Assembly: GCF_022814725.1 (NCBI RefSeq)
Contig: NZ_CP093442.1
Location: forward strand, 3,038,001 to 3,102,000
Length of the DNA stretch: 64,000 nucleotides
Direction: 5' to 3'
Source of the DNA: Bdellovibrio reynosensis
GTDB lineage: Bacteria > Bdellovibrionota > Bdellovibrionia > Bdellovibrionales > Bdellovibrionaceae
Shown in pieces: positions 22,926 to 38,926 of this stretch. Both the position numbers and the translations under genes were made by a program. The first letter of the stretch is position 1, and each line of letters opens with the position of its first letter. Under the pieces are notes generated by a model. It made no database searches, was not told where the DNA came from, and worked only from the letters and a program-made list of their open reading frames with translations.

Positions 22926-24521
22926 TTACGGCAGAAGGCTTGATTTTACGGACTCGTAGCGGTTTTTAACTTTTGCCCAAATATTGCTGTGGGGGCCGGT
23001 GATACCGTCTTCACCTACTTTTTCAGTAGTTCCCGCAAGCCCGCGCGCAGGCGCATTCACTTGTCCTGGAAGAAATTTTCTTAATTCTTCAAAGGCAATT
23101 CTTTCTTGTTCTGTCATGGTTTCTTCAGTCTCAGCTTCATCCGGTTTCCCAGGTTTTTTTGCACCCTCGGCTGCGACCACGGGATCTGCTACATTTGGTT
23201 TTGCAGCAGCACCACCACCACCGTAAAATCCACCTAGCACACTGCGATCGCTGATGTTCTTTTTGCCTTTGGTTTTTTTATTAAGTGCGGCGGCACCCAG
23301 CTTAGAGCTTAATGACGGGTCGCCACCTTGTTTACCTTCTGCTGCTGGATCATCGGGAACGCCCGCATGATCGTGGTGTTTTAATTTATCCATATCTGAA
23401 AGATCTAAATTGTCTTTGGCACCTTTTTGTCGATCTGCTAATTCAGAGCTTGAATCTAAGTTGCCACCTGCAGTCGATGATCTGCACATCGCATGATTTG
23501 GATTCCCGCGACACACACAAACTTTATTGTTAGCCATACTTGGATGACTGCAATCCATTGCCTTTTCTTGGCCAGAGTTACCGCAACCAGGATAGTTCGG
23601 ATTCTGCATGCACAATTCACTTGGGCCAGTACCAGCACCGGCAGTCAGCGAAGCGCAGTCTTGGGAATTCATGGTGATCTGTGAATAGTTTTGTGCGGCT
23701 GCTTGCGCGTCAGCCATTTTGCCTGTAAAGCCAGAACAGGTGGTACGATTTTGATTTAAAACCTTGCGAGCTACATCTTGCGAAGCCAGCGATTTTTTAT
23801 TTCCACACATAGGAACAATCTGAGTCGTGGAACAAGTAGCATGGCAAGATTTGATAGCGGAAGTGCACACTTGTCGATAAAGCATTAGCCCAGCACTGAC
23901 TCCTTTACTTAGACTTGCCATCTTTGAGCAGCTTTCATTAACACTAGAGGCTGATTTTTGCCCCATGTAGACCGCCGCTTGGCCTACAAGGTCAGACACC
24001 TTACTCATTGCAGAGCCATTCTCATCGCATGAGCTGGCAGTTTCATTGACCGCTGTTTCACAGGCAGTAATCACTGGTTCGAAATTTTCTTCACACGTAT
24101 CTTCGTTCAACTCACTGATAGCTTCGTCAGGAATCGGTGTCCCGTCCGCCGATGTTTGGTCCCCAGGAGTCTGGGAAGAGCCTGGCTTATCGGTTCTGAT
24201 GATTTGATCCTCGGGCTCACGAGGTAAAAGGTATTCAAAAGTTGTCTGTACAGTTTTTGTACCGTTTGGATAGCATTCCTTTTTACAAGTAGGGCCATCT
24301 TTCCCTGCAATAGCGCAACGTCCATAGCAGATCGTCTCTTCATCCACGCGGGGATCAAGATGATATTCGCAGTATCGTTGACAACCAGCCTCTGGCTTTT
24401 TGGCTCTTTTTTCGCAGGCGCGCCAGCAATCCGCATTTATATCTGTATGTTCCTGGGCAAAGGTATACTGACTACCGAAAAATATGGAAAATCCAAAGAT
24501 CAACGCGCAAAACAACTTCAT
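22926..24521 (-). CDS. Secreted Cys-rich protein 1 (tandem paralogue)
   Basis: A 531-residue protein with a signal peptide (about 1-22, ending TFAQE). The mature N-terminus has spaced Cys (CWRACEKRAK, CQRYCEYH, CYGRCAIAG, CKKECYP). A central domain (about 140-345) is rich in Cys, Ser and Asn and holds SVNESCSKMASLSKGVSAGL, GFTGKM, NSQDCASLTAGAGTGP and CVCRGNPNHAMCRSS. A charged, disordered region follows, then the conserved C-terminus AREL-type FLPGQVNAPARGLAGTTEKV ... ITGPHSNIWAKVKNRYESVK. The next protein has the same layout. No known enzyme motif. CCGATAAG lies 6 nt before the ATG. Probably exported and disulfide-bonded; predation or envelope role is speculation. Confidence 0.82.
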   Translation of the reverse strand: MKLFCALIFGFSIFFGSQYTFAQEHTDINADCWRACEKRAKKPEAGCQRYCEYHLDPRVDEETICYGRCAIAGKDGPTCKKECYPNGTKTVQTTFEYLLPREPEDQIIRTDKPGSSQTPGDQTSADGTPIPDEAISELNEDTCEENFEPVITACETAVNETASSCDENGSAMSKVSDLVGQAAVYMGQKSASSVNESCSKMASLSKGVSAGLMLYRQVCTSAIKSCHATCSTTQIVPMCGNKKSLASQDVARKVLNQNRTTCSGFTGKMADAQAAAQNYSQITMNSQDCASLTAGAGTGPSELCMQNPNYPGCGNSGQEKAMDCSHPSMANNKVCVCRGNPNHAMCRSSTAGGNLDSSSELADRQKGAKDNLDLSDMDKLKHHDHAGVPDDPAAEGKQGGDPSLSSKLGAAALNKKTKGKKNISDRSVLGGFYGGGGAAAKPNVADPVVAAEGAKKPGKPDEAETEETMTEQERIAFEELRKFLPGQVNAPARGLAGTTEKVGEDGITGPHSNIWAKVKNRYESVKSSLLP

Positions 24522-24618: not shown

Positions 24619-26175
24619 TTAAGGCAGTAAAGTCGACTTTACAGATTCGTACCGATTTTTAACCTTTTCCCATATATTACTGTGGGGTCCAGTAATGCCG
24701 TCTTCACCTACTTTTTCTGTGGTGCCGGCAAGACCTCTCGCGGGAGCATTCACTTGACCAGGAAGAAATTTTCTTAGCTCTTCAAGCGCAATTTTTTCTT
24801 TTTCAGTCATTTCTTCACTAGGTTCATCCGTAGCAATCGTCTTTTTTGCAGACTCGATCGCGACAACAGGCTCGGCGGTATTCGGTTTCGCAGCAGCGCT
24901 GCCGCCATAAAATCCACCAAGTACGCTGCGATCACTGATGTTCTTTCGTGATTTCAGTTTCTTGTTTGCAGCTGCAGCACCTAGTTTAGAACTCAACGAA
25001 GGATCGCTACCTTGTTTGCCATCTGCAGCCGGATCGTCAGGTACACCAACGTGATCTCGGTGTTTCAACTGATCCATGTCTGAAAGATCTAAATTGTTTT
25101 TGGAGCTCTTTGGCTGGCGGTTAGCTAGTTCGGAGTTTGCATCCAACGAATTGCTCGCAGCTGATGATCTGCACATAGAATGATTTGGATTTCCACGACA
25201 TACACAAACTTTGTTGTTAGCCATGCTTGGATGAGTGCAATCCATCTTTTCTTGGGCTGAACTGCCGCAGCCAGGATAATCTGGATTTTTCATGCAAAGT
25301 TCCGTTGGACCGGTTCCAGCACCTGCAGTCAGTGAAGCACAGTCTTGCGAGTTCATAGTGATCTGGGAATAGTTTTGTGCCGCCGCCTGCGCGTCGTTCA
25401 TTTTCCCTGTGAAGCCAGAGCAGGTGTTGCGATTCTGGTTTAAAGCCTTCCGCGCTGCAGTTTGTGCAGCTAATGACTTTTGATCGCCGCACATAGGAAC
25501 GATGCGAGTCACCGAACAGGTTGCGACACAGTTTTTTATCCCTGAGTTGCAAGTTTGGCGGTACAGCATTAAACCTGCACTGACTCCTTTGCTTAAGGTA
25601 GCCATTTTGGAACAACTTTCATTCACACTCGAGGCTGATTTTTGGCCGATGTAAACGGCGGCCTGACTGACTAAATCAGAAACCTTACTAAGTGAAGAGC
25701 TATTTTCATCACAACTAGCGGAAGTGTCGTTAACCGCAGATTCGCAAGCCTCGATAACCGGAGAAAAGTCTTCTTCACAAGGCTTTGTATCTATTACCTC
25801 TGAGTGAGCACTGCTGTCGTCACTGCCAGTTCCAGTACCAGGTTCTTGTTTTTTTGGAGGCGGATACTTGTCATGACATCTTGTGGGGCATTTGTCGCCA
25901 GGACATACTTCTTCGCATTTAATTTCAATATCTTTTCCCGGAGGAGTAGGTACGAACTCCGCACCTTCGCCAGACGAATTTCCCATAGGTCCTGGCAGGT
26001 CGCCCATATTTCCATAGGCTATGTCGTCTGGGCAAGTATCCATACAGTCCGCGAGTTGGGAGTCTGGCACATCGCCCAGCTTCTTTGTACAATAGTTTGC
26101 GCAAGCAGCAGCATCATAAGCGGAAGCTGTATAGTTGAAGCCGAATAGAACGAAGAAAAAAAATAAAGACTTCAT
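24619..26175 (-). CDS. Secreted Cys-rich protein 2 (tandem paralogue)
   Basis: A 518-residue paralogue of the adjacent downstream protein. The start at 26175 begins a clean signal peptide (MKSLFFFFVLFGFNYTASA). The N-terminal Cys pattern differs (CANYCTKK, CMDTCPDD, CEEVCPGDKCPTRCHDKYP), while the central block from VIEACESAVNDTSASCDENS to CVCRGNPNHSMC and the C-terminal 45 residues are nearly the same as in paralogue 1. Duplication with divergence of the N-terminal part is visible. It lies 83 bp downstream of the YD-repeat gene in the same direction, so the three may be one operon. GCCGATAAG precedes the start by 7 nt. Confidence 0.82.
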   Translation of the reverse strand: MKSLFFFFVLFGFNYTASAYDAAACANYCTKKLGDVPDSQLADCMDTCPDDIAYGNMGDLPGPMGNSSGEGAEFVPTPPGKDIEIKCEEVCPGDKCPTRCHDKYPPPKKQEPGTGTGSDDSSAHSEVIDTKPCEEDFSPVIEACESAVNDTSASCDENSSSLSKVSDLVSQAAVYIGQKSASSVNESCSKMATLSKGVSAGLMLYRQTCNSGIKNCVATCSVTRIVPMCGDQKSLAAQTAARKALNQNRNTCSGFTGKMNDAQAAAQNYSQITMNSQDCASLTAGAGTGPTELCMKNPDYPGCGSSAQEKMDCTHPSMANNKVCVCRGNPNHSMCRSSAASNSLDANSELANRQPKSSKNNLDLSDMDQLKHRDHVGVPDDPAADGKQGSDPSLSSKLGAAAANKKLKSRKNISDRSVLGGFYGGSAAAKPNTAEPVVAIESAKKTIATDEPSEEMTEKEKIALEELRKFLPGQVNAPARGLAGTTEKVGEDGITGPHSNIWEKVKNRYESVKSTLLP

Positions 26176-26257
26176 TAAGGTGCTTATCGGCTTTTCATTG
26201 ATCTTTGCAAAGTCTCGCAAATAAAAAATCATTTAATATCTGTGTCTCATTTTGATT

Positions 26258-27715
26258 CTAGTAAGACGGCAATGTTATTTGCGCCATTCGCTGATGGTCA
26301 TAATAAAGCTCGACAGCAGCCGTTTCACTCGCGGTGGATCGTTTGCTGTAAATTTCTAATGGCAATTCTTTATCGTTGTACTTTAATGCTCGGGCTTGAA
26401 GCTTTCCCTCAGGATAAATAGGGTAAACCACAGTGTCTTTATGTGAGACACGGCTAAGACGGTTTTCTTCGTCATAGAAGAATTCGATCTTTTTGCCACC
26501 GGGTTTTGAGGCGCTGATCATGCGATCTTCTTGATCATAAGACAGGGCGTATTTAAGTTTATCTGCAACATGTCCTAAAGCGATTTGTTCGACTAAAACT
26601 GCAACCACCAAGTCACGGCTGGCACCTTGTTTGTAACTATAAGTACGTGCTTCAAATGGCGAACTTACTTTTACGATCTGACCTTTGTTATTTCTTTCAA
26701 TCTTTGTAATCACGGTACCACGCGGACGGTGTTCAGTAACAGTGACGACATTACCATGGTCATCGTATTTATATTCTCTGCGAATTCCGCTTTCATCCAC
26801 TTCGGCAGCAACGATGCGCCGATTATCTAATGAATAAGAATAGGCATAACTTCGTTCAATGATCACGCCACCGTCACATTTTTTAGAAATACTGACTGCA
26901 TAGCGCGCAGGGGATTTCGTTGTATCTGTTTTATAATCATAATTTTCAGAACAGATATCTGTGCCTTTTAAACTTTTCACCCAGTCATTGCCATTGTAAG
27001 TGATATCGATACTTTTTTGCCCGGGCCAGGTGGCTTTAACAAGGTTGTGTTCAGTATCGTATTGATAAGTGTAGGTATTACCCCAGTAGTTCGTCGCACT
27101 GATTAAGTCATTATTTTTATAAGTGTAAGAGGCGATAACTTCCTTCATCGCTTTGTTACCGATCTTTTTGCTTAAGAACGTGATCTGCGTGATTCGCCCC
27201 TCATCATTGGTGTTAACCAAAGCTTTGCGCCCGTTGCCATCGGAGACTTCTTTAAGGTGCTTTTTTTCGTTATACTTTAATGAAACGTAGTCTAAGCCTT
27301 TTTTGATTTCAGTCAGTCTTCCGTTTTTATCAAAGACATCGACAGTTCCATCTTTATAGCTGCGCAAAAAATTAGAACCCTGCTTTACGATAGTACCATT
27401 GGCATCAGAATGTGACTTAAAGACAGAGCCCTTTTTTGAGTACTCAGTCTCTGCACCGTCCCCGCAATGTTTAACTAAAATTGATTCCTTATCAGCGATA
27501 AGTTTAGTTTCTAAATCAGAACACCAACCATAACCAAACCATCCGACATAAGTGGACCGACTGTTATAAGTTCTTTCAAGAGTGAGTTTTAGATCCAGGC
27601 CTTTACCTTGGTAATCAATCCAAGATTCCATAAACGATCCAGACGAAGAATCGACTAGGGCAGAAGCGTGAAAGGAAAAAACCAGTGCGGACAAAAACGT
27701 TAAGTGCCTGATCAT
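26258..27715 (-). CDS. Secreted YD-repeat (Rhs-like) protein, copy 1
   Basis: A 485-residue protein with a signal peptide ending ASA. It opens with the block found at the start of Rhs shells (LERTYNSRSTYVGWFGYGWC) followed by about ten YD-type repeats (YKYDDHGNVVTVTEHRPRG, FFYDEENRLSRVSHKD). It ends in a block shared with copy 2 (YYDHQRMAQITLPSY). It is far shorter than true Rhs proteins and lacks the PxxxxDPxG cleavage motif and toxin tip, so it is probably a beta-sheet scaffold or binding protein rather than a toxin carrier. GGGAG lies 5 nt before the ATG. It is divergent from a small Cys protein and transglycosylase-like gene; an inverted second copy of this set lies 2.4 kb away. Confidence 0.85.
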   Translation of the reverse strand: MIRHLTFLSALVFSFHASALVDSSSGSFMESWIDYQGKGLDLKLTLERTYNSRSTYVGWFGYGWCSDLETKLIADKESILVKHCGDGAETEYSKKGSVFKSHSDANGTIVKQGSNFLRSYKDGTVDVFDKNGRLTEIKKGLDYVSLKYNEKKHLKEVSDGNGRKALVNTNDEGRITQITFLSKKIGNKAMKEVIASYTYKNNDLISATNYWGNTYTYQYDTEHNLVKATWPGQKSIDITYNGNDWVKSLKGTDICSENYDYKTDTTKSPARYAVSISKKCDGGVIIERSYAYSYSLDNRRIVAAEVDESGIRREYKYDDHGNVVTVTEHRPRGTVITKIERNNKGQIVKVSSPFEARTYSYKQGASRDLVVAVLVEQIALGHVADKLKYALSYDQEDRMISASKPGGKKIEFFYDEENRLSRVSHKDTVVYPIYPEGKLQARALKYNDKELPLEIYSKRSTASETAAVELYYDHQRMAQITLPSY

Positions 27716-30074: not shown

Positions 30075-30111
30075 TATAAAACTAATTCGATACTAATATG
30101 GTGGAGTATTG

Positions 30112-31569
30112 ATGAAAAACCTTTGTGTGAGTCTGTTTATTTTAGCATCTTCCATTACAGCGCAAGCCATGGTGGACACCTCATCAGGATCTTATATTCA
30201 TTCCTGGATTGATTTTGAAAAGCCAGGTCTAGAACTTGCGATGAAACTTGAAAGAACCTATAACAGTCGTTCTAACCGTACCGGTTGGTTTGGTTATGGA
30301 TGGTGTACGGATTTAGAAACTTCAATTGATGTCAGTGAAAATGGTGTCCACTTTGTCTATTGTGGCGCTGGCCGAGATGTCACTTTCCGCAAAAAAGGAT
30401 CTAGTTTTGTAAGTAAAGATCCGTCAATGGGAGTCTTTACTAAAGAGGGTTCTACCTATATCAGAACTTTAAAAGATGGAACTCGAGAAAAGTATAACAA
30501 CGGTGTGCTGACTGAAATTGCTAAAGGCGAAGTGAAACTTTTCTTCAAGTATCAAGAAAATGGCCTGCCAAAAGAAATCGTAGATAACGAGGGAAGAAAA
30601 GTAGTATTCACTACCCAAAAAGCATTTGTGACAAAAGCTGTTTTTGTTACGAAAAAGCAAGACGGAACGACGCCGTTAATAAATGATCTAGGAAAATACG
30701 AATACAAAGACGATCTTTTGGTGCGCACCGTGAATTCGTGGGGAAATGCTTACAGCTATGCCTATGACAAAGATAAAAACATGGTGAAAGCGGTGTGGCC
30801 GGGGAATCAAAAAGTCGAAATGACCTATAGCACTTCAAGCGATTGGATCACGGGTATTAAGGGCGATGGCATCTGTTCAGAAGTTTACGACTACAAACTA
30901 GACAGTTCAAAAACTCCGCCAAAGTATGCTGTTGTTGTGAAGAAGGTTTGTGTGAATAACACCACAATTGAAAAATCTTATAGTTATCAGTTTTCTGGGG
31001 ATACACGACGAGTGATCGCCCATGAAAGTGATAACGAAGGAATTCAAAGACGTTACAAGTTTGACGACCAAGGAAACGTAATTGAAGTTACTGAAGAAAG
31101 ACCTCGTGGAAGTGTGACGACAAAAGTTCAGCGAAATAACAAGGGGTTGATCAGTAAGGTAAGTAATTCGTTTGAAGCAAGAAGTTACGTTTATAAAACG
31201 GGTGGCAGCACAGATTTGACTGTGAAGGTTGTTAAAGAAATGCTAGCCTTCGGAAAGTCGGTGGGATCAGAAGAATATCTTTTCACCTATAACGAAAATG
31301 ATCTGATGATCGGTGTGACTGGGCCTGATAAAGTTAAAGTCACTTATAAGTACGATGACAGAAATCGTTTAACACAAATCACAAAGAAAGATTTGGTTAT
31401 TGATGTTCTTTATGAAGAGTCATCAGCAAGCCCCATTGTTCTTAAACTTGCCGGGCAAAAAGTTCCATTAAGCTTAAATCGTTTTACAGCCACAGCCCCA
31501 CAAGTTGCGGCGTTAGAGTCGTACTATGACCATGCCCGAATGGCTGATCTATCAGTTCCTTATTATTAA
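30112..31569 (+). CDS. Secreted YD-repeat (Rhs-like) protein, copy 2
   Basis: A 485-residue paralogue of the protein at 26258-27715 with the same length and layout. Signal peptide ending AQA; LERTYNSRSNRTGWFGYGWC; about ten YD-type repeats (YKFDDQGNVIEVTEERPRG, YKYDDRNRLTQITKKD); final YYDHARMADLSVPYY. No toxin tip and no DPxG motif. GGAG lies 5 nt before the ATG at 30112. Unlike copy 1 it is not followed by Cys-rich genes; a strong terminator comes next. Exported beta-rich scaffold; role unknown. Confidence 0.85.
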   Translation: MKNLCVSLFILASSITAQAMVDTSSGSYIHSWIDFEKPGLELAMKLERTYNSRSNRTGWFGYGWCTDLETSIDVSENGVHFVYCGAGRDVTFRKKGSSFVSKDPSMGVFTKEGSTYIRTLKDGTREKYNNGVLTEIAKGEVKLFFKYQENGLPKEIVDNEGRKVVFTTQKAFVTKAVFVTKKQDGTTPLINDLGKYEYKDDLLVRTVNSWGNAYSYAYDKDKNMVKAVWPGNQKVEMTYSTSSDWITGIKGDGICSEVYDYKLDSSKTPPKYAVVVKKVCVNNTTIEKSYSYQFSGDTRRVIAHESDNEGIQRRYKFDDQGNVIEVTEERPRGSVTTKVQRNNKGLISKVSNSFEARSYVYKTGGSTDLTVKVVKEMLAFGKSVGSEEYLFTYNENDLMIGVTGPDKVKVTYKYDDRNRLTQITKKDLVIDVLYEESSASPIVLKLAGQKVPLSLNRFTATAPQVAALESYYDHARMADLSVPYY

Positions 31570-35076: not shown

Positions 35077-35172
35077 CTACGTACCTAATGGAGGACAGTC
35101 TTTAGGACCTTGAGCAATGCCCACAGGTTGAGTCTTCTTAGGAGTTACTTTTTTAATGTGTTTGTCTGACAT
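35077..35172 (-). CDS. Candidate RiPP precursor peptide, 31 residues
   Basis: A tiny gene 5 nt downstream of the radical-SAM/SPASM gene. The peptide starts MSDKHIKKVTPKKTQPVG and ends AQGPKDCPPLGT. The Lys-rich front looks like a leader, and the short C-terminus, with its only Cys and three Pro, looks like a core. AAGGGTG, overlapping the radical-SAM stop codon, gives an ideal ribosome site 8 nt before the ATG, so translation is coupled. There is no signal peptide, and no Gly-Gly leader cut site is evident. One Cys allows at most one thioether link; other ring chemistry is possible. I know no named family with this core. Position, size and ribosome site make it a real gene with good probability. 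Confidence 0.75.
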   Translation of the reverse strand: MSDKHIKKVTPKKTQPVGIAQGPKDCPPLGT

Positions 35173-35177
35173 AATAT

Positions 35178-36506
35178 TCACCCTTTCAAGCCTCTACTAT
35201 GTTCATAATACAACACAGTTAGGCTAATCAAGTATCTTGTTCTTTCACAAAAGCTAATATGTTTTCTGTGTTTGTTCCCCGTAAGGGTTTTATGAACAAA
35301 CATACAACCGCCACCGCATAAATAACGAGCCCAGCAGGTTTGGCAGTTGTTCTTTTCAATCAACGGACTTTGCAATTCTGCGAGTTTGTCAGAATCGATG
35401 TCTTGAGCTAATCCCACTTGATTGTTTTTCTGTCCCACATCCAGGGGACAAGCGAAAATCTTATTGTTTGAATCAATGCTTAATAAGGATTTGCCAGAAC
35501 CACAGTGATTCTCGGTTCTTTGTTGTTCATCTAAAGCGTTAAAGTAGCCATCAAAGAGGCTAATTTTACGTAGCTCTGCCTCGCCACCGCGGGAATAAGC
35601 AAGTTCCGCAACGCGGGCCATTTCATTCATAAAGATGCTGTTGGCAGAAGGATCGGCCTCAGTAATATCAAAAGTAAATTCAAAGGCATTCACCGGGAAT
35701 TCCGAAAAAAAGCGATAAGCCTTTTCGACTTCTAAGTTTTTCTTACTAAAAACGGCATGAATCAGAATTTTTCCCAGGTCGGACTGACGGGATAAAAGTT
35801 TTTCTAAGCCCGCTAACGCAGCCTTAGAAGAGCCCTCGCCATTTTTCTGCGGACGCGCCTTATCCTGGTTTTCTGGCGGACCATCGATACTTACAGTGAT
35901 GTTGGCTTGAATCGAGGTTAAAATCTCAAGGCATTTATCGTTAATTAACGTACCGTTAGTAATAACATTGAAATTAGTTTTAATGCCTTTTGCAGCACCG
36001 ACAGTTTTAGCATGGTCAGCAATCGCCTTCAGTGCATCTGGGTACAACAACGGTTCACCACCCAGAAAAGTAATTGTGAAGCTAGAATTCCCACCTAGTT
36101 TATTTAAAAAGAACTCGATCTGTGGCAACGTTTTTTCAACAGTGATCTTAGTGACTGGATCCCCGTAAGTGCCGTCGCCGCCGGCCGCGCAATAAGTGCA
36201 ATGAAGGTTGCACAGTTGGGTGACGTTTAAAGTAATGCTAGTTACGGACGAGCCGAAATTGCGAGTAGCTACAGAAGAGCTATTTTCTAAGTCCCATCCT
36301 TCAAGTGAAGAATAGGCTTCAGCATTCACTCCTTTTTCAGACGAAAGCATGTTCATCACAAAGCCATTATCAAAAGTGGTCGGCGCCATGGAGGCCCAGA
36401 CCTCTTCCGAAACGGAAGCTACTTCCAGATTGCGCGCATGGAAAGCCACGGGCGCATTGGCTCCGTTTTTTATGGCTATAATGTCTTTATGTCTGCGCAA
36501 TTGCAT
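35178..36506 (-). CDS. Radical SAM/SPASM peptide maturase
   Basis: A 442-residue enzyme. An N-terminal domain (about 1-85) of the size used for precursor recognition comes first. The radical SAM core follows, with CNLHCTYC at 99-106 for the 4Fe-4S cluster, the GGEPLL motif and the VSIDGPPENQD strand. The C-terminal SPASM domain has NHCGSGKSLLSID, FACPLD, CQTCWARYLCGGGC and FCERTR, enough Cys for two auxiliary clusters. This build is typical of enzymes that crosslink ribosomal peptides. I chose the ATG at 36506 for AAGGGAAA about 8 nt upstream. It is the first gene of an apparent four-gene operon: maturase, peptide, CHASE2 kinase, NtrC-type regulator. No exporter or protease gene is adjacent. 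Confidence 0.92.
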   Translation of the reverse strand: MQLRRHKDIIAIKNGANAPVAFHARNLEVASVSEEVWASMAPTTFDNGFVMNMLSSEKGVNAEAYSSLEGWDLENSSSVATRNFGSSVTSITLNVTQLCNLHCTYCAAGGDGTYGDPVTKITVEKTLPQIEFFLNKLGGNSSFTITFLGGEPLLYPDALKAIADHAKTVGAAKGIKTNFNVITNGTLINDKCLEILTSIQANITVSIDGPPENQDKARPQKNGEGSSKAALAGLEKLLSRQSDLGKILIHAVFSKKNLEVEKAYRFFSEFPVNAFEFTFDITEADPSANSIFMNEMARVAELAYSRGGEAELRKISLFDGYFNALDEQQRTENHCGSGKSLLSIDSNNKIFACPLDVGQKNNQVGLAQDIDSDKLAELQSPLIEKNNCQTCWARYLCGGGCMFVHKTLTGNKHRKHISFCERTRYLISLTVLYYEHSRGLKG

Positions 36507-36626
36507 GAACGGTTTCCCTTCGTCACCATTTCCTATGAGTCCAACACCTTTTCTGCAATAGATGGGCCAAAAGCACACTTTAAAATTGCATATAACCTCT
36601 AGTAAAATCAGCTATTTAGATCAGGC

Positions 36627-36658
36627 GACCCAGTGGCGGAACTCACGGTCCTGGGGTC
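36627..36658. repeat. Imperfect hairpin in the divergent promoter region
   Basis: GACCCAG (36627-36633) can pair with CTGGGGTC (36651-36658) with one bulged base, and an inner GTG/CAC pair is possible. It lies between the radical-SAM gene and the divergent CHASE2 kinase gene. It may be an operator or a leader structure; no riboswitch class is recognised. Confidence 0.35.
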
Positions 36659-36739
36659 AAAATGTAACTACTACAGGACTAAAAAAGATTTAAACAATGC
36701 GTAACAACTGGCTAAAATCAAAATCAATCAGGGGAAAAG

Positions 36740-38926
36740 ATGTTCATTCGTTTAGCTGTTATCGTTGTTGTTTGCTTTGGATTGTCTGGGTTACTTACCA
36801 ATTTAAGGCTGCCGACTTTTGAATCTTTCTTCCTAGATCGAAAGCAAATGATAGCTAGCTTTCTAGGCGCAAAACCCAGTTTTAACGATATTCAAATTTT
36901 AGATGTCACTGCGCTTAAGACTGAAACGGCTGAAGGCTTAAAGATACCTGCATCTAAACTTTTAGATGTGATTGAAACTATCTCGCAGACCCCATTTAAA
37001 GCGATGATCTTAAGCGTTTCACCTGAAGAAGTGCAGTTCGATATTTCTGAACAGGAACTTTCAAAGCGTTTATCAAATATTTCTAAACTTTATTTATTTT
37101 CTAATTCCACTATTTTTAAGAACACCACTTTTGATTTTCATAAAAGGTTTGAACGTTATCCTGAGCCTTTATTCTTGCATCTGACCTATGATGCAAAAAT
37201 CGATTTAGTTTCACGAAGGATCATTACTTATTTTGATTTAGAATATAAAAACGCCAACCCTGATTTTGCGGTGATCGATAGAATGTTCGGCCGAGCACAA
37301 TCGCCAGAAAAATTTCATTTTGATTTTCCTTATCAAGGAACATCCCAGGTATTTATGAAAGTTTGGAATCCGGGAAACTTTTCCGAACTTGCCATCGACC
37401 CTGGTGGGGTTTCGGCTGAAAAGTTAGAACAAATAAAAGACAAAGTCGTCATTCTAGGTACGAGTGGAATTTATTCCGTCAATTCCACACCAAGAATCGC
37501 TTCTTCGGCTGAAGAGTACGTCCCGGTTTCCCATCTTTTAGCTACTTATCTGACGAATTTGCGAAGCGGCGAATACGTAAAAACACCACCACCAAAAGCG
37601 AACTGGTTGTGGATGGGAATTGCGCTTTTCTGCTTGTTAAGCAGCTTGACCTTGTTCCCTGTAAGGGCGGCTTTTGCCGCTAGTACTTTTATAATTTTCG
37701 CCTATGTAATTTTAGGACTGATGGTCTTTAGGACGGCGTCGTTAAACTTAGACACGGGCAAAGTGCTTCTTTTGGGTTTTGTCGGACAATACGCCATTTT
37801 ATCGACGCGGTTTTTTAGAATGGTTCGCAGGTTGGATAAAGAAAACTTTCAGCGCGAAAAACAAGCAACCGAAGAAAGATTGCGCAGTCGAATTTTGGTC
37901 CGCGCCGCAACTATGGAATCCACGATGCGCACCTTAGGGAAAATGGCCCACGACATCCGCAGCCCCTTGATGGCCTTACATGTGGCGCATTCTTTATTAA
38001 AGAACCAAGTTAATCCAGAGCTTCGGGACTTAATCAGCAATTCTATTTCACGCATTAACGGGATAGCGGAAGACCTGCTGAAAAAATACAAGTCAAAAAG
38101 TGGCGATGCCAAAGATACCGAAACTTTTTTAGGACCGGTGGTGAACGAGCTTATCGATTCATATATCCACGTTCACCCGCAAGCGAAATTTACGGTGAAC
38201 GTTCCATCAGAAATTGAAGTCAATTGGGGCGCAGCCTCTATCCAGCGTTCTTTTTCAAACCTACTTAATAACTCTTTAGAAGCGTGTTATGCCAATAACA
38301 TCAAACCAGAAATCGAAATCCTGGCCGCAAAAGTTGATGCAAAAATTAGGATCGATTTTAAAGATAATGGTCCTGGGGTTTCAGAAAAAAACATCCCAAA
38401 ACTTTTTCTAGAAGGTAGCACTTTTGGCAAAGAACAGGGGACAGGGTTAGGGTTGTTCCAAGTTAAAAAAGATTTAGAATTCTTCGGTGGAACCATTACT
38501 TACCAAAAGCAACAAGGTGCCTGCTTTACGATTCTTATTCCTGCAGCCCGTGATCCGGTGAAATTTATGATTAGTTCCGCAGTGATACTGGTGCAAAACA
38601 CAGAAAATAATGGGGAGTTAAAAAGAAAGCTAGAAGCCAGCGGAGCCGATGTAAAATATTTTAATGACGTTTCTAAGGCTAGCGACTTTATAAAGAAAGA
38701 AAAATTCATTGAACCGATTACGGTAATAAGTGACTTGATGTTTTCCACTGCAGAAGAAACCGGATTTGATGTTTTAGATGCCTGCGACAATAAGCCGATT
38801 TTCAAGATGGTACTTTGTACGTCACTCGTCGACAGTGCAGAAATTCAAGACCTAGCCAATAAAAAAGGCGCTAGCTTGGTTAGCAGCGCCTTTATGGAAA
38901 CCGTGGTTATTAGCTTACGCAAATAA
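36740..38926 (+). CDS. CHASE2 sensor histidine kinase with degenerate receiver domain
   Basis: A 728-residue membrane kinase divergent from the radical-SAM gene. An N-terminal span (1-20), a CHASE2-type sensor (about 25-275, ending KVVILGTSGIYSVNSTPRIA and a ...VSHLLATYLTNL tail), three spans (about 285-360), HisKA with TLGKMAHDIRSPLMALHVAH, and HATPase with NLLNNSLEACYA, FKDNGPGVSE and GTGLGLFQVKKDL. The last 120 residues fold like a receiver (TVISDLMFSTAEETGFDVLD) but lack the acidic pair at the start and the late Lys, so they are probably a protein-binding module. GGGGAAAAG lies upstream of the ATG. It ends 0 nt from the convergent gene. Confidence 0.9.
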   Translation: MFIRLAVIVVVCFGLSGLLTNLRLPTFESFFLDRKQMIASFLGAKPSFNDIQILDVTALKTETAEGLKIPASKLLDVIETISQTPFKAMILSVSPEEVQFDISEQELSKRLSNISKLYLFSNSTIFKNTTFDFHKRFERYPEPLFLHLTYDAKIDLVSRRIITYFDLEYKNANPDFAVIDRMFGRAQSPEKFHFDFPYQGTSQVFMKVWNPGNFSELAIDPGGVSAEKLEQIKDKVVILGTSGIYSVNSTPRIASSAEEYVPVSHLLATYLTNLRSGEYVKTPPPKANWLWMGIALFCLLSSLTLFPVRAAFAASTFIIFAYVILGLMVFRTASLNLDTGKVLLLGFVGQYAILSTRFFRMVRRLDKENFQREKQATEERLRSRILVRAATMESTMRTLGKMAHDIRSPLMALHVAHSLLKNQVNPELRDLISNSISRINGIAEDLLKKYKSKSGDAKDTETFLGPVVNELIDSYIHVHPQAKFTVNVPSEIEVNWGAASIQRSFSNLLNNSLEACYANNIKPEIEILAAKVDAKIRIDFKDNGPGVSEKNIPKLFLEGSTFGKEQGTGLGLFQVKKDLEFFGGTITYQKQQGACFTILIPAARDPVKFMISSAVILVQNTENNGELKRKLEASGADVKYFNDVSKASDFIKKEKFIEPITVISDLMFSTAEETGFDVLDACDNKPIFKMVLCTSLVDSAEIQDLANKKGASLVSSAFMETVVISLRK

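Follow-up and report, generated by a model that had tools for sequence, protein, structure and literature searches.

A probable radical-SAM maturase and precursor peptide pair in a sigma-54-type operon with a CHASE2 kinase and an NtrC-type activator in Bdellovibrio reynosensis

Genes and features of the operon

The window analysed here is a 64,000-nucleotide stretch of Bdellovibrio reynosensis (contig NZ_CP093442.1, positions 3,038,001 to 3,102,000). Its minus strand carries genes for a radical-SAM/SPASM maturase and a short peptide, followed by genes for a CHASE2 sensor histidine kinase and an NtrC-type response regulator (Table 1). An earlier note, made from the letters of this DNA, had described the maturase and the peptide and missed the rest of the operon, that is, the CHASE2 kinase, the NtrC-type regulator and the sigma-54 promoter.

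Table 1. Positions of the operon's genes and candidate control elements in the window
Feature	Position	Strand	Remarks
Conserved upstream element TAGTTACATTTTGACCCCAG	36651..36670	-	Candidate regulator binding site; sole copy in own genome at this stringency
Sigma-54 (-24/-12) promoter candidate TGGCCCATCTATTGCA	36554..36569	-	First base 63 nt before maturase ATG
Radical-SAM/SPASM maturase, 442 aa	35178..36506	-	CteB-like; putative leader-recognition-like domain at N-terminus; invariant Cys 3 + 7
Translation-initiation region of peptide	35173..35187	-	AAAGGGTGA-ATATT 5' of ATG, reaching into maturase stop codon
Precursor peptide gene, 31 codons + stop	35077..35172	-	Product MSDKHIKKVTPKKTQPVGIAQGPKDCPPLGT; HIKKV as leader box; only Cys is Cys26, in C-P-P
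CHASE2 sensor histidine kinase, 626 aa	33163..35043	-	N-terminal TM helix, CHASE2, further TM helices, HisKA, HATPase_c
NtrC-type sigma-54-dependent response regulator, 507 aa	31647..33170	-	Receiver, AAA+, Fis-type HTH; overlaps kinase gene end

Homologues begin at the ATG at 36506 (MQLRRHKDI/MEQRR) and the sigma-54-like promoter lies just upstream of it, which favours this ATG as the start of the maturase. Across 37 enzymes exactly ten Cys never vary, three of the radical-SAM motif (C99, C103, C106) and seven of the SPASM domain (C335, C353, C388, C391, C397, C401, C420). Among solved structures, CteB, a RiPP maturase that forms thioethers, ranked first both by profile (E 6e-50) and by Foldseek. 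The predicted structure (pLDDT 92) was superposed on CteB with VIA-align over 409 residues (Z 36.0, rmsd 3.4); residues 6 to 438 of 442 align with the whole CteB chain including its N-terminal domain, and Pfam PqqD was unmatched. The earlier reading of a full radical-SAM/SPASM maturase, based on the motif CNLHCTYC and the SPASM Cys set, was borne out by the presence of both and by this near full-length match. With seven SPASM Cys, one of the auxiliary clusters would be expected to keep an open site, a feature discussed for CteB, and such a cluster would suit a Cys substrate.

The peptide gene lies on the same strand, with its open reading frame at 35080-35172 and its stop codon at 35077-35079. 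The junction with the maturase gene reads aaagggTGAatattATG, with 5 nt between the maturase stop and the peptide ATG, and the ribosome site of the peptide gene, GGTGA, extends into the maturase's stop codon. Both the 31-codon frame 5 nt after the enzyme and the overlapping ribosome site therefore stand as first described. A peptide-profile search of the whole genome found a single copy. A Pfam match of the peptide to DUF5323 (E 0.0034, 17.7 of 25 bits) was discarded as a chance similarity of Lys/Pro-rich sequence.

The kinase gene begins 33 nt downstream of the peptide stop, and in the model of its product an N-terminal TM-like helix precedes the CHASE2 domain, which is followed by more long helices and then HisKA. 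The one-strand order maturase, peptide, kinase, regulator was observed at practically all loci whose flanks reach far enough; at L061/L138, which are the same place, the regulator was found on the other side. The operon and its near flanks hold no exporter or processing protease, in agreement with the earlier note, and no signal peptide was found. Near the operon there are two RHS/YD-repeat-like genes, 26258-27715 (-) and 30109-31569 (+), and genes for two near-duplicate Cys-rich, apparently secreted proteins, 22926-24521 and 24619-26232 (-). A second CHASE2 histidine kinase gene, 36740-38926 (+), is divergent from the maturase operon, and its product has a C-terminal extension past the kinase domain. 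This divergent kinase adjoins the operon only in some relatives (L005, L009, L018, L019, L047), and it is also found at the enzyme-less locus L100.

The precursor peptide and its coupling to the maturase

Within the genus, the maturase was matched in 23 of 24 genomes, at 48-72% identity in those other than the window's own, and the peptide gene adjoins it in all 23, the two genes overlapping by up to 23 nt or standing no more than 27 nt apart. In the 24th genome the kinase lies at a contig end, hence the missing maturase there is uninformative. A further 41 named public loci were collected, nearly all labelled Bdellovibrionota and one labelled Streptomyces griseus; the peptide is present in 37/37 of those with an intact 3' flank, four being truncated or broken (L048, L065, L067, L068). 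The locus with the Streptomyces label (L040/L148, CALQIT020000002.1) has a Bdellovibrio-type gene order and is probably a mislabelled bin. Loss or breakage of the peptide gene beside orthologous enzymes, which would have counted against the earlier proposal, was seen at none of the assessable orthologues.

A peptide profile was made from 34 seed peptides, which match by construction, and compared with 13,907 small ORFs of all loci. Matches at E<0.01 were exclusively enzyme-adjacent and included many unseeded loci, and most of the weaker matches just short of this threshold were enzyme-adjacent too. The same small-ORF profile search found no peptide at 27 kinase loci without a maturase, a few of which have short upstream flanks. 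The peptide gene has a pN/pS of about 0.25 overall and of 0.10-0.43 per pair, as calculated from pairwise substitution rates. Its enzyme-adjacent presence across relatives and this ratio indicate that, as far as sequence can tell, the gene is under purifying selection and thus selected as a protein. The 31-codon gene adjoining the radical-SAM enzyme is confirmed as real, and its coupling to the enzyme is far above chance.

Because the small ORF sits between the enzyme and the kinase genes in one operon, it might instead serve the kinase gene as a leader peptide, regulatory or translationally coupled, with the maturase acting on another substrate. This is highly unlikely, as the peptide tracks the enzyme and not the kinase, being missing from 27/27 enzyme-less kinase loci, and as the ORF is under purifying selection at the protein level and keeps its HIKK and Cys boxes.

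These boxes were defined in 67 non-identical precursors, in which some over-extended starts add a spurious Cys in two. The leader box H(I/V)KK(I/V/L) lies near the N-terminus and is followed by a variable middle. A Cys stands 3-12 residues from the C-terminus in 67/67, usually as C-x-P. Around it, G(-1) occurs in 40/67, G(-3) in 37/67 and P(+2) in 59/67; no cross-link acceptor at a fixed spacing is conserved in the core, where only these three positions recur. Distant members in the family f9 retain MKHIKK and the near-end Cys, and several of them read C-P-E. A variable middle between a kept HIKK box and a single Cys is, at the level of sequence, the pattern of a maturase substrate. The earlier note had named the peptide as the substrate of the adjacent maturase and suggested aligning its C-terminal core; the alignment retains the single Cys with C-x-P across relatives, and together with the peptide's presence beside every assessable orthologue and the kept boxes it supports that assignment. 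The peptide is thus very probably the substrate of the radical-SAM/SPASM maturase.

The locus has the features of a RiPP system, namely a short precursor gene coupled to a maturase with CxxxCxxC and SPASM ligands, and the core Cys that could serve as thioether donor in ranthipeptides and sactipeptides occurs in all 67 precursors. The maturase resembles CteB and the SCIFF, PapB, QhpD and nif11-like maturases in its full-length fold, with a putative recognition-like N-terminal domain, the radical-SAM barrel and SPASM. It shares CxxxCxxC and seven SPASM Cys with the SCIFF maturase CteB and with ranthipeptide maturases, and SCIFF/ranthipeptide systems likewise have an adjacent peptide gene with Cys in the core. 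PapB, nif11-like, QhpD and SCIFF maturases took the top NCBIfam ranks, all far under their cut-offs. In contrast to known ranthipeptide maturases, the enzyme falls under every NCBIfam cut-off, the best score being that for PapB (NF047865, 179.9 of 340 bits), and its substrate has a single Cys and lacks the repeated CX3D of PapB substrates. It differs also from SCIFF (TIGR03974, 128.6 of 425 bits), in which six Cys occur in about 45 residues instead of one. The operon, unlike ranthipeptide systems, has a kinase and a regulator and no transporter or protease. The geopeptide maturase family TIGR04280, whose name implies a short-peptide maturase, matches from residue 1, yet at 108.9 bits against a cut-off of 400. 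No NCBIfam family matched the precursor peptides at E up to 10. A curated-family name for the system was therefore rejected, as neither the enzyme nor the peptide reaches an NCBIfam cut-off.

NxxC-type RiPPs contain one Cys23-Asn20 bridge (PMC8326336). The present precursor is similar in having a single Cys, and so can form one thioether ring at most; it differs in lacking a conserved Asn at -3, where as at -1 G is commonest, with P at +2, and the host phylum and the neighbouring genes are not the same. A thioether is only slightly favoured as the modification. Apart from G(-1/-3) and P(+2), the core offers no conserved cross-link acceptor, and this counts against the preferred explanation.

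The short single-copy precursor, near-universal in the family and with a Cys near its C-terminus, as well as the missing exporter, would also suit a small peptide-derived redox cofactor such as PQQ or mycofactocin as the product, in place of a signal or effector peptide. This is improbable: PQQ-like and mycofactocin-like companion genes are absent beside the precursor, whose neighbours are signalling genes (kinase and regulator) together with PBP and MBL-fold genes. Moreover, the C-terminal ends of the precursors differ in length and sequence, and no conserved dehydrogenase partner is adjacent.

Distribution, promoter and possible link to predation

The maturase was found in 60/66 genomes of its own family, in 13/13 of family f7 and in eight of f9; its absence from G014 and G042 is a contig-end artefact. 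Strict coupling of the maturase-peptide pair to the kinase was considered and rejected, because the kinase is matched in 120, the regulator in 116 and the enzyme in 81 of 141 genomes of the order. Since enzyme-less kinase loci are without the peptide, and kinase and regulator are wider than the enzyme, the maturase and the peptide form one inseparable module that is attached to a more widespread two-component system. Enzyme and kinase distances correlate (r 0.57-0.76), which was set aside as evidence of partnership because it shows only shared vertical inheritance. The gene order is in part the region's general synteny, in which the PBP and MBL-fold genes are likewise retained, and this too counts against the preferred explanation. 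In several enzyme-less relatives (L104, L110, L112, L114, L116, L120, L126) a lipoprotein-like gene (~300-435 aa) lies directly upstream of the CHASE2 kinase, and its product is possibly an alternative partner of the CHASE2 sensor. Two further loci of the window's own genome, L184 (2092587-2095102, -) and L185 (2041503-2044389, +), contain more radical-SAM-like genes, two of them adjacent in L185, and these may be separate peptide-modification clusters.

In the phylum outside the order, no close maturase match was found and one distant match, in genome G301, was obtained. At this locus, L140 (G301:C81), a low-identity maturase homologue is followed by an MKHVKK peptide, MKHVKKVKKLKK...ACSWMSDG. 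Next come an inserted nucleotidyltransferase-like gene and then the start of a CHASE2-like protein, and a sigma-54-like site is present at -48. The genome lies outside the order and has multihaem-cytochrome genes. The repeat of maturase, peptide and CHASE2 outside the order argues for function rather than mere synteny, and suggests that the module predates the order or extends beyond it.

A sigma-54-like site (TGG...TTGC) was found upstream of the maturase in 61/70 orthologous loci, scoring at a level that 4.4% of shuffles reach, where the sites are consensus matches and the 70 upstream regions come from related, not independent, loci. A strong sigma-54-like site also occurs at about 10/26 enzyme-less kinase genes. 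General palindrome enrichment upstream gave no clear signal; alignment then showed an element that in most genus members has the form GAAATAGTTTCCTTTTGnCCCC. When as many as 3 mismatches were allowed, 13 genomes of the genus had GAAATAGTTTCCTTTTGnCCCC at this operon, and there were only three stray matches, all at 3 mismatches. A -24/-12 promoter sequence and an NtrC-type activator gene are thus combined here, in the manner of a sigma-54-regulated two-component operon. NtrC-type regulators activate sigma-54 promoters, and the element is near-unique to this operon, so autoregulation of the maturase operon by its own NtrC-type regulator is the natural reading that these sequences suggest.

In G001, which we take to be B. 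bacteriovorus HD100, the operon lies at ~3.272-3.277 Mb (L180-L183 span G001 3244000-3318000). Around it lie the HD100 markers fliC6 (Bd3342; PMC2791853), HU (Bd3382; PMC12546842), ragB (Bd3393; PMC3818213) and flgE (Bd3395; PMC2277423). By counting between these marker genes, the kinase and the regulator are estimated to map near Bd3359 and Bd3360, and a second nearby two-component pair falls at ~Bd3365 or later by the same count. Bd3359 and Bd3360 are two-component genes that are up-regulated at 30 min of predation and not in host-independent growth (PMC2797640).

Predatory hosts and a possible induction in prey invasion (PMC2797640, by the estimated mapping) raise the thought of a predation-linked, bacteriocin-like RiPP that targets prey. 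We regard this as very improbable, because no immunity, export or protease gene is present and the C-terminal core is near-identical across species within clades instead of diversified. Sporadic bacteriocin-type RiPPs are not near-universally conserved; the near-universal presence of the module in the family points to the core physiology of these bacteria.

Output or input of the two-component circuit

We consider it likely that the operon holds a RiPP maturase-precursor pair placed under the control of the CHASE2 kinase and the NtrC-type activator encoded with it. Its new aspect is this regulatory context of CHASE2 kinase, NtrC-type activator, sigma-54-like promoter and upstream element, and no earlier description of a maturase-peptide-CHASE2 system was found in the open-access literature on Bdellovibrio. 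In the proposed mechanism, the CteB-like maturase would bind the HIKK leader of the 31-residue precursor and then use radical chemistry on the C-terminal core, whose single Cys would form one cross-link, most likely a thioether. Sigma-54 would transcribe the operon, headed by the maturase and peptide genes and ending with those of the kinase and the activator, and the activator would most likely switch on its own operon's promoter. The two-component system would thereby govern production of the modified peptide, which may in turn be a cue for the CHASE2 domain, giving positive-feedback peptide signalling.

That last step is doubtful, though possible: the mature HIKK/C-x-P peptide would be the ligand of the CHASE2 kinase, as a Gram-negative pheromone or an internal messenger, and the kinase and its partner would drive the same operon. 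Clostridial SCIFF-derived ranthipeptides act in quorum sensing and the YydF peptide induces LiaRS, according to work that PMC8326336 cites. These are precedents for radical-SAM-modified peptides that feed signalling, including a two-component system; they are, however, Gram-positive and not co-encoded with a CHASE2 kinase and a sigma-54 activator. The operon and its near flanks also lack the dedicated exporter and processing protease of peptide-pheromone two-component systems, and with neither these nor a signal peptide, there is no obvious route for the peptide to the periplasmic CHASE2 domain. Furthermore, the kinase cannot need a peptide ligand everywhere, because about 27 relative loci keep it without the maturase and peptide.

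These kinase loci fit as well with the modified peptide being the output of the circuit and not its input, a reading that we hold to be a serious contender if somewhat short of even. Here the CHASE2 kinase would respond to a different cue at the envelope, such as prey invasion, and the regulator would turn on a peptide that has its effect within the cell or leaves it by a route unlinked to the operon. Both kinase and regulator occur without the pair at those loci, the conserved upstream element is essentially confined to the maturase operon, and no exporter is adjacent. The approximate correspondence to the predation-induced Bd3359/Bd3360 (PMC2797640), drawn from marker genes, points the same way, but this locus-tag mapping is an estimate. 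The distant L140, where a peptide gene again lies near a CHASE2 gene, fits direct partnership too.

The preferred reading, a RiPP pair governed by its own two-component system, would give radical-SAM peptide enzymes a new substrate class with a single Cys in C-x-P. We know of no established ligand for the widespread CHASE2 sensor domains, and here a CHASE2 sensor is co-operonic with a probable modified peptide in most of its own family and partly in two more families of the order. A single peptide, enzyme, promoter and candidate receptor make a compact, testable set. If the signal role is true, the peptide would, to our knowledge, represent the first class of natural ligands of CHASE2 domains, and it would be a life-cycle switch of the predatory Bdellovibrionales.
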